This document shows positions 29,983 to 32,110 of a DNA stretch of 41,627 bases, one piece after another (position 1 is the stretch's first letter; each line of letters starts with the position of its first letter). The stretch spans positions 1 through 41,627 of IMG/VR virus record IMGVR_UViG_3300036804_000040. The stretch is one strand, 5' to 3'. A model generated the notes under the pieces. That model was not told the DNA's origin, ran no database searches, and was given only the letters and a program-made list of their open reading frames with translations. The DNA comes from a virus. The position numbers and the translations under genes are program-made.

Positions 29983-30753
29983 ATGCTAACGGTTTTAGAT
30001 TTATTCAGCGGCATAGGCGGATTTAGCTTAGGACTTGAGCGCACGGGCGGCTTTCAAACGGTGCAATTTTGCGAGATTAATCCGTTTTGCAGAAAAGTAC
30101 TGGCAAAGAATTTTCCGGGGATTCCGATCCATGATGACATCAGAACGTTTAAACCCACCTATGCAGATATCGTGGTTGGAGGATTCCCCTGTCAAGACAT
30201 TAGCTTTGCAGGACGGGGCGCCGGCTTGGCTGGCGCGCGTTCGGGGCTATGGTCCGAAATGCTTAGAATTATTCGCGAGGTTCGACCCCGATACGCAATT
30301 GTGGAAAACGTCGCAGCGTTGCTTAATCGAGGGATATCAAACGTGGTCGCAGACTTGGCCGCGCTCGGGCTTGATTCGGAATGGCATTGCATACCGGCTT
30401 GCGCCGTTGGTGCCCCTCACAGACGTGACAGAGTGTGGATTGTGGCCTACCCCAATTGCGCGCGACGCGCGCAGCCGCAAAGGAGCGCGAAGGTCCAAGA
30501 ATGCGCAAGGATCGGAGCCATTGAGCGTACAAGTTTGGGCTACGCCGACAGTACACGGGAATTACAATCGCAAAGGCGCGAGTGCGACGAGCGGGGACGG
30601 GCAAGCTGGTGGAGCATTGAACCCGACATGGGTCGAGTGGCTTATGGGGTACCCCGCCGGGTGGACAGACTTAGAAGTCTAGGGAATGCGGTGGTTCCGC
30701 AGATTGTGGAAATATTGGGCAGAGAAATATTGAAATATGAGCAAGCCGCGTGA
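29983..30753 (+). CDS. C5 cytosine DNA methyltransferase
   Basis: 256 residues. Motif I LDLFSGIGGFSLGLE (5-19), motif IV GGFPCQDIS with catalytic Cys70 (66-74), motif VI ENV (108-110), motif VIII HRRDRVWIVA (146-155) and motif X GNAVVPQIVE (234-243) are all present. The target-recognition region between VIII and IX is only about 60 residues, much shorter than usual, so specificity may be relaxed or supplied elsewhere. No cognate restriction enzyme is seen, so it probably protects phage DNA from host restriction. From about codon 60 to 233 another frame is open and protein-like (30161-30682). Confidence 0.92.
   Translation: MLTVLDLFSGIGGFSLGLERTGGFQTVQFCEINPFCRKVLAKNFPGIPIHDDIRTFKPTYADIVVGGFPCQDISFAGRGAGLAGARSGLWSEMLRIIREVRPRYAIVENVAALLNRGISNVVADLAALGLDSEWHCIPACAVGAPHRRDRVWIVAYPNCARRAQPQRSAKVQECARIGAIERTSLGYADSTRELQSQRRECDERGRASWWSIEPDMGRVAYGVPRRVDRLRSLGNAVVPQIVEILGREILKYEQAA
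30161..30682 (+). CDS. Overlapping protein encoded inside the methyltransferase gene
   Basis: 173 residues in a different plus-strand frame, entirely within the methyltransferase gene. The frame is open from 30035; ATGs at 30131, 30134 and 30161 are the plausible starts. Its sequence has features I recall from a family of phage and bacterial proteins encoded with cytosine methyltransferases: a SWLEDSPVKTLAL opening, FDPDTQLWKTSQ, TWPRSGLIRNG, GLWPTP, WATPTVHGNYNRKG and a C-terminal NPTWVEWLMGYPAGWTDL. That order of conserved Trp/Pro motifs is not what a random shadow frame gives. Function unknown; it might assist or specify the methyltransferase. Recognition is from memory and needs a search. 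Confidence 0.65.
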   Translation: MQISWLEDSPVKTLALQDGAPAWLARVRGYGPKCLELFARFDPDTQLWKTSQRCLIEGYQTWSQTWPRSGLIRNGIAYRLAPLVPLTDVTECGLWPTPIARDARSRKGARRSKNAQGSEPLSVQVWATPTVHGNYNRKGASATSGDGQAGGALNPTWVEWLMGYPAGWTDLEV

Positions 30754-31091
30754 TCGATTATTTATTTGTATGCAGTGCCAACTTGCAGCGCTCGCCAACC
30801 GCCGAACATGTCGCGCGCCTGATGGGCTACAAAGCCTCCAGCGTTGGCAGCGTGCCATTTTATAGCCCGGTGCGATTATTGAACCGCGATGCTATCGAGT
30901 GCGCGGAGCATATTGTCTGCATGCAGGAAGAACATGCATCAGCTGTGCGCGCCATGATCAACTATTATCGTATGCAGGTATGCGGCGATATCGAGGTATG
31001 GGATATCCCGGACGATTTCAGCTATTGCGAACCTGCCTTGATAAAATTGATTGAGGCAAAGCTGCCAAAGCGTGTATTAAGTGACGGATGA
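30750..31091 (+). CDS. Low-molecular-weight phosphatase-like protein
   Basis: 113 residues. FVCSANLQRSPTAE at 6-19 is the C-x5-R-S phosphate-binding loop of LMW protein tyrosine phosphatases and arsenate reductases (Cys8, Arg14). A late WDIPDDFSY segment supplies the expected general-acid aspartate. Shorter than cellular enzymes (about 150), as usual for the phage version. It could remove host protein phosphates; substrate unknown. GTG start overlaps the methyltransferase stop. Confidence 0.8.
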   Translation: MIDYLFVCSANLQRSPTAEHVARLMGYKASSVGSVPFYSPVRLLNRDAIECAEHIVCMQEEHASAVRAMINYYRMQVCGDIEVWDIPDDFSYCEPALIKLIEAKLPKRVLSDG

Positions 31092-31429: not shown

Positions 31430-32110
31430 ATGCTTGAGGTGATCGGCAATGCTCATCTGTACTTTGGCGACTGTCTGGAAATACTCCCGACGCTCAGCAA
31501 GGTCGATGCCGTCATTACTGACCCGCCTTACGGGCACGGTTGGAGCGGAATCAGCCACACCGCCAATCCAGGCGGTGTTCTATGGGGCGAACGCCGCGTG
31601 AGTGGGGCAATCGTCGGTCACGACAAGCCGTTCGATCCAGCGCCATTCCTAGCCCTGGCCGTGCCCTGCATATTTTGGGGAGCGAATCACTTTGCCGACC
31701 GGCTGCCAGCAAGCCCCGCGTGGTTCGCCTGGGATAAGCGCGAGGGCACGACTAGCAACTATCAGTCAGATTGCGAGCTTGCCTGGTGCAACGTGGGCGG
31801 CTCCGCGCGCATGTTCCACCATCTTTGGAATGGGCTGAGCATGAAATCCGGCAGCGAAGAAACGAAACGCACTCGCGGTGCACTGCCGCGTCTTCACCCG
31901 ACGCAGAAGCCCGTAGCCCTCATGCGGTGGTGCGTCGATAAGATCGAGGGCGACACCATTTTGGATCCTTACATGGGCAGCGGCACTACGGGAGTCGCTT
32001 GCGCGGATATGGGGCGAAAGTTCATCGGGATTGAGATTGATCGCAAGTACTTCGATATCGCGTGCGAACGCTTGGAGGCTGCCAATGCTCAAACAAGACT
32101 ATTTACCTGA
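31430..32110 (+). CDS. DNA adenine/N4-cytosine methyltransferase, beta class
   Basis: 226 residues. DPPY (31-34) is motif IV; DPYMGSGTTG near 179-188 is motif I, and IGIEIDRKYFDIA follows. Motif IV before motif I defines the beta class. HPTQKPVALMRWCVD precedes motif I, as usual. The recognition region between them is compact. It methylates the exocyclic amino group of adenine or cytosine. AGGGA ribosome binding site 7 bases upstream. With the C5 enzyme, it gives the phage two independent DNA modifications and no restriction partner. Confidence 0.9.
   Translation: MLEVIGNAHLYFGDCLEILPTLSKVDAVITDPPYGHGWSGISHTANPGGVLWGERRVSGAIVGHDKPFDPAPFLALAVPCIFWGANHFADRLPASPAWFAWDKREGTTSNYQSDCELAWCNVGGSARMFHHLWNGLSMKSGSEETKRTRGALPRLHPTQKPVALMRWCVDKIEGDTILDPYMGSGTTGVACADMGRKFIGIEIDRKYFDIACERLEAANAQTRLFT

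Follow-up and report, generated by a model that had tools for sequence, protein, structure and literature searches.

A conserved gene overprinted on a phage C5-cytosine methyltransferase gene and its probable role as the second subunit of the enzyme

The window analysed here is the whole of an IMG/VR virus record, 41627 bases in length. A sequence-only reading had pointed to a cytosine methyltransferase frame on the plus strand and to a second plus-strand frame inside it, and both were recovered. The first (hereafter alpha, 29983-30753) is open and carries the catalytic motifs I (29995), IV (PCQ, 30181), VI (ENV, 30304) and VIII (30409), followed by motif X (30679). The second (beta), in the +1 frame relative to alpha, is open over 30035-30682, which corresponds to 215 aa, and contains LWKTSQ (30299), TWPRSG (30353), GLWPTP (30437) and HGNYNRKG. 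The features of the locus are the following.

29983..30753, plus strand: alpha, candidate catalytic subunit of a C5-cytosine methyltransferase (PF00145, 3.4e-40; profile alignment; AF2 model)
30131..30682, plus strand: beta, candidate second subunit, +1 frame; candidate ATG at 30131 or 30134, alternative ATG at 30161, frame open from 30035, stop codon at 30680-30682 (PHROG_1008, 4.9e-30; register in 185 of 189 loci; synonymous-shuffle tests)
30299..30400, plus strand: conserved beta block LWKTSQ...TWPRSGLIRNGIAYRL (beta consensus KTsQ...TWPrsG...nG..Y)
30437..30466, plus strand: beta GLWPTPIARD motif, on the same bases as the end of alpha motif VIII (WIVAYPN)
30467..30606, plus strand: putative target-recognition region in the beta frame, where alpha is a low-confidence linker
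30617..30664, plus strand: motif IX-like segment of beta, LNPTWVEWLMGYPAGW (motif IX profile test; wobble-base test)
30679..30702, plus strand: alpha motif X (LGNAVVPQ), immediately after the motif IX codons of beta

At the DNA level, the order of these elements is the canonical one, motif VIII, recognition region, motif IX and motif X, with the recognition/IX stretch sitting in the +1 frame. The N-terminal half of beta is overprinted on alpha motifs IV-VIII, its block LWKTSQ...TWPRSGLIRNGIAYRL falling between motifs VI and VIII, and a WATPT motif at 30536 lies within the putative target-recognition region. As the sequence-only reading had it, the two conserved C-termini come from the same DNA, beta LNPTWVEWLMGYPAGW (30617-30664) being overprinted on alpha EPDMGRVAYGVPRR (30619-30660). 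The alpha stop is overlapped by a gene (30750-31091) whose product resembles low-molecular-weight tyrosine phosphatases at their N-terminus (PF01451, 3.4e-4, slightly under the cut-off). Close downstream, at 31430-32110, a second DNA methyltransferase is encoded, of the N6/N4 type (PF01555, 2.3e-23).

Alpha is 256 aa long and matches PHROG_363 (4e-82) in addition to PF00145, the latter over profile positions 2-180 of 324 only. When its profile was aligned with canonical enzymes, alpha was covered over its full length, including LGNAVVPQ, which aligned to the canonical GNAVPVPV and thereby identifies motif X, with its C-terminal helix; the canonical motif IX (RRLTPRECARLQGFPDDF) was skipped. 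The motif IX profile run on alpha itself gave matches at chance level. The AF2 model of alpha was ordered at residues 1-160 (catalytic domain) and 226-255 (C-terminal helix), and the approximately 60 residues between them (about 161-225) were of low confidence, with a pLDDT of about 41-52 over 161-220. Judging from this model, the stretch between motifs VIII and X is probably disordered. The model matched M.HhaI with a Z of about 26 and 1.9-2.2 Å over about 197 residues, a match that leaves out most of the small domain. Alpha is a catalytic fold with motifs I-VIII and X, without motif IX and without an ordered recognition domain. A monomeric C5-methyltransferase combines motif IX and an ordered small domain in one polypeptide, and alpha does not.

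The PHROG_1008 family, to which the product of the +1 frame belongs, was matched by 63 of 63 aligned betas. No family was found for beta in Pfam or NCBIfam, and a sequence search of the PDB returned no credible match; a match to Tako8 was set aside as a weak repeat artefact. Modelled alone in AF2, beta was poorly folded (pLDDT 59). When the canonical motif IX profile was slid along beta, its best ungapped match was the C-terminal LNPTWVEWLMGYPxGW in all 76 of the 76 betas, with p values for the window beta of 0.0007 (16-column profile) and 0.0034 (18-column profile). Aligning the main beta family with canonical enzymes by hhalign gave no significant match, so that the assignment of motif IX rests on the short ungapped pattern and on a divergent variant found in Pseudomonas. 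This variant (loci L248-L252, L254 and L255) is a diverged pair of alpha and beta that overlap in the same +1 register. Homology between its beta and the main family was found by hhalign (94%, 8.7e-8), and this beta ends in RWLSGSERLKMMGFASDW, a near-canonical motif IX (p 0.0005), where the main family has LNPTWVEWLMGYP.

Relatives of beta were found in 120 phage records, 7 plasmids, at least 595 IMG/VR contigs, 353 stretches of bacterial or archaeal genome contigs, and 23 of 249 Pseudomonas genomes, some of these last matches being weak. The E. coli collection held only four relatives, among which the M.EcoHK31I sequence was not identified. Of 189 loci checked, which come from viruses, from bacterial genomes and from a single archaeal MAG, 185 have beta in the +1 frame relative to alpha; in the four others, alpha is broken by a frame change. 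Because these loci had mostly been picked for holding beta, 24 viral loci were also recruited with alpha alone, and beta was present in the +1 frame in every one of them, with a stop inside it in two. Canonical C5-methyltransferases fetched with PF00145 had no +1-frame beta, and no beta without alpha was seen among the loci examined. The pair is conserved across hundreds of loci in phages and bacteria. Mostly alpha alone is shown in the annotated records that we looked at, and no report of the wider distribution of the pair was found in the literature searched.

The second frame had been taken by the sequence-only reading for a separate protein family found beside phage methyltransferases. This part did not stand, as beta never occurred outside the alpha overlap in the loci examined and behaves as the other half of the same gene. 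A lack of homologues outside such overlaps had also been named as one of two findings that would speak against overprinting. None was indeed found in the loci examined, but this is predicted anyway for an obligate subunit encoded inside its partner.

Some loci are arranged differently. In L029 (1892-2968) and L189 (2171-2908), the N-terminal part of alpha (motifs I to about VI) and beta are in one frame and the C-terminal part of alpha (VIII, X) in the other, which is either a natural fusion or a sequencing error. In Mycobacterium phage Llama (L107), alpha and beta are both broken by one frame change near 2585, which may reflect decay or frameshifting; Llama and several related mycobacteriophages have two 'DNA methylase' genes annotated. 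A single stop between conserved blocks of the beta frame, present in L088 and L105, could be due to recoding, decay or error. Upstream of its main copy, locus L037 has a second alpha/beta copy (412-1074), which has diverged and whose beta C-terminus reads PIEWEWLLGFPIGWTDL. In the E. coli PT62 prophage (L266), alpha alone is annotated at the overlap, with another DNA cytosine methyltransferase gene some 2 kb upstream.

Beta might be real and overprinted and still have no part in the methyltransferase, acting on its own as, for example, a regulator or a host nuclease inhibitor. The main beta family has no significant profile match to canonical methyltransferases, and beta has no Pfam or NCBIfam family, as could be expected of such a protein. 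We nevertheless find it unlikely, given that neither motif IX nor an ordered small domain is found in alpha, that beta has a segment resembling motif IX at the corresponding position, that beta was never seen without alpha in the loci examined, and that M.EcoHK31I offers a precedent for a subunit. The sequence-only reading had ventured that the second product is a specificity partner, and the comparison of the two polypeptides points the same way: alpha has neither motif IX nor an ordered recognition region, and beta combines the motif IX-like segment with a variable region where a recognition domain would be expected.

A start codon in the beta frame (ATG, GTG or TTG) is present in 47 of the 50 loci that have at most 25 open codons upstream of the beta core, and the beta starts of several relatives are preceded by a Shine-Dalgarno-like sequence. 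In the window, GGGGATTCC precedes ATG 30131 and ATG 30134; it is not a strong Shine-Dalgarno sequence, and none that is strong was found at the beta starts of the window. Beta probably does not start at the TTG at 30035, since conservation begins only around ATG 30131/30134 or 30161. Across relatives, the start falls within a short zone and not at a single fixed codon. A conserved start at the alpha DD motif was considered and rejected, as an ATG is found there in only 29 of 73 loci. Instead of starting internally, beta could be made as a fusion to N-terminal alpha by programmed frameshifting, a reading in keeping with the single-frame arrangement of N-terminal alpha motifs and beta in L029 and L189, and with the beta frame of the window, open from 30035 with no stop before the beta core. 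It is very improbable, however, because in many relatives a beta-frame stop a short way upstream of the core is followed by a start codon, frequently accompanied by a Shine-Dalgarno-like sequence, and because of the start codons in nearly all loci with a short upstream frame.

Selection on the beta frame was assessed by randomising the synonymous codons of alpha, keeping the alpha protein and its codon usage. In the window, such shuffles placed a mean of 6.3 stops in the 169-codon core of beta, and 0 of 200 stayed open. Over 76 loci, there was no stop in the real beta cores versus 5.09 expected per locus, and about 1% of shuffles were open. Against a held-out beta profile, trained on sequences less than 50% identical, the window beta scored 196.8 bits, versus a mean of 75.3 and a maximum of 104.4 for the shuffles, and real scores were above those of every shuffle in 17 of the 17 loci tested. 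As the shuffles retain some beta score, the similarity is in part a consequence of alpha.

The sharpest test was provided by the shared C-terminal motif. There, NPxWVEWLMGYP is essentially invariant in beta, which fixes positions 2 and 3 of the alpha codons, and alpha codon position 1 is the free wobble base of beta. This base was strongly skewed so as to keep the alpha residue at AAC (104/109, background 0.50, p 4e-25), at GTC or GTA (106/110, background 0.41, p 5e-36) and at GAG (103/111, background 0.48, p 3e-24), these p-values counting related sequences as independent. At the last proline, where alpha is variable, CCG was used in 36 of 103 cases against a background of 0.31, which is not significant. 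Among closer relatives, changes at alpha four-fold sites amounted to 0.245 in the linker, 0.227 in motif IX and 0.280 in motifs IV-VIII, versus 0.340 outside the overlap; the reduction is modest overall, and per pair it is significant for the linker and motif IX but not for motifs IV-VIII. Codon-position rates, computed on 145 mostly saturated pairs, were uninformative on motifs IV-VIII.

The overlapping gene is real, and the alpha and beta frames are both under selection. The overprinted gene pair that had been proposed is thus borne out by the shuffle, register and wobble tests. There is next to no chance that the second frame is a shadow of alpha conservation and codon bias, with no product, a reading ruled out by the synonymous shuffles and the wobble test: shuffles do keep part of the beta profile score (a mean of 75 bits in the window), but the real scores beat them all in 17 loci, no stop occurs in 76 loci, alpha sets the wobble bases of beta while the first two positions of the beta codons stay invariant, and no such frame was seen in the canonical enzymes examined.

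We consider it very likely that the locus encodes one orphan phage C5-methyltransferase in the form of two polypeptides, of the M.EcoHK31I type, with beta contributing motif IX and probably target recognition. In frame 0, alpha would contribute the large domain (motifs I-VIII), which binds AdoMet and carries out catalysis, as well as the motif X helix at the C-terminus. Beta, presumably translated from an internal start in the +1 frame, would add motif IX and most likely also the part of the small domain that recognises the target. Both polypeptides are expected to assemble into an active heterodimer, as in M.EcoHK31I, and the phage enzyme would most likely guard phage DNA from host restriction.

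This two-polypeptide kind of enzyme is already known; the novelty lies in how broadly it is conserved, in the quantification of the constraint on both frames, and in a beta family that neither Pfam nor NCBIfam contains. To our knowledge, the overprinted arrangement is known from one studied bacterial enzyme. We see about even chances that overprinted C5-methyltransferases form a large, mostly unrecognised class in phages and bacteria, with the specificity domain in the alternative frame of the catalytic gene. If so, diversification of specificity would be tied to the constraint on the catalytic frame, and few same-strand overlapping gene pairs of prokaryotes would be as widely conserved. Long same-strand overlaps have, as far as we know, rarely been established in prokaryotes, and here dual-frame selection can be read directly from codon choice. 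Naturally split methyltransferases are starting points for targeted methylation tools (PMC3439449). If the two-subunit model is right, enzymes cloned as annotated, which mostly means alpha alone, would be inactive and their specificities mis-predicted.

In M.EcoHK31I (YGGCCR), the large subunit has motifs I-VIII and X with a predicted TRD, and the small subunit has motif IX (PMC3404938). The present pair is alike in that alpha has motifs I-VIII and X and no IX, and beta a motif IX-like segment. A further likeness is that a different frame within the gene of the large polypeptide encodes the small one, as Lee, Kam and Shaw reportedly described in 1995 for M.EcoHK31I, both polypeptides being said to be needed for activity. 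These likenesses are drawn from the descriptions of the subunits. The predicted TRD of M.EcoHK31I is in the large subunit, whereas recognition is here ascribed to beta, and M.EcoHK31I belongs to a restriction-modification system, whereas the phage enzyme is apparently an orphan. M.AquI (CYCGRG) is likewise one C5-methyltransferase in two polypeptides (PMC3404938). However, its break falls inside the variable region and its small subunit has both motif IX and motif X, whereas here X belongs to alpha and the genes share about 550 bp. With the monomers M.HhaI, M.HaeIII and other PF00145 members, alpha shares the catalytic fold and the locus the motif order in DNA, but alpha is without their motif IX and small domain, and the canonical genes examined, unlike this locus, have no +1-frame beta. 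The name of PHROG_1008, 'DNA methyltransferase', is an automatic cluster name, and nothing that we found marks the cluster as a second frame inside a methyltransferase gene. A related situation is possibly that reported for a prophage whose orphan C5-methyltransferase is predicted to have an M.EaeI/M.EagI-like specificity (PMC4722110).
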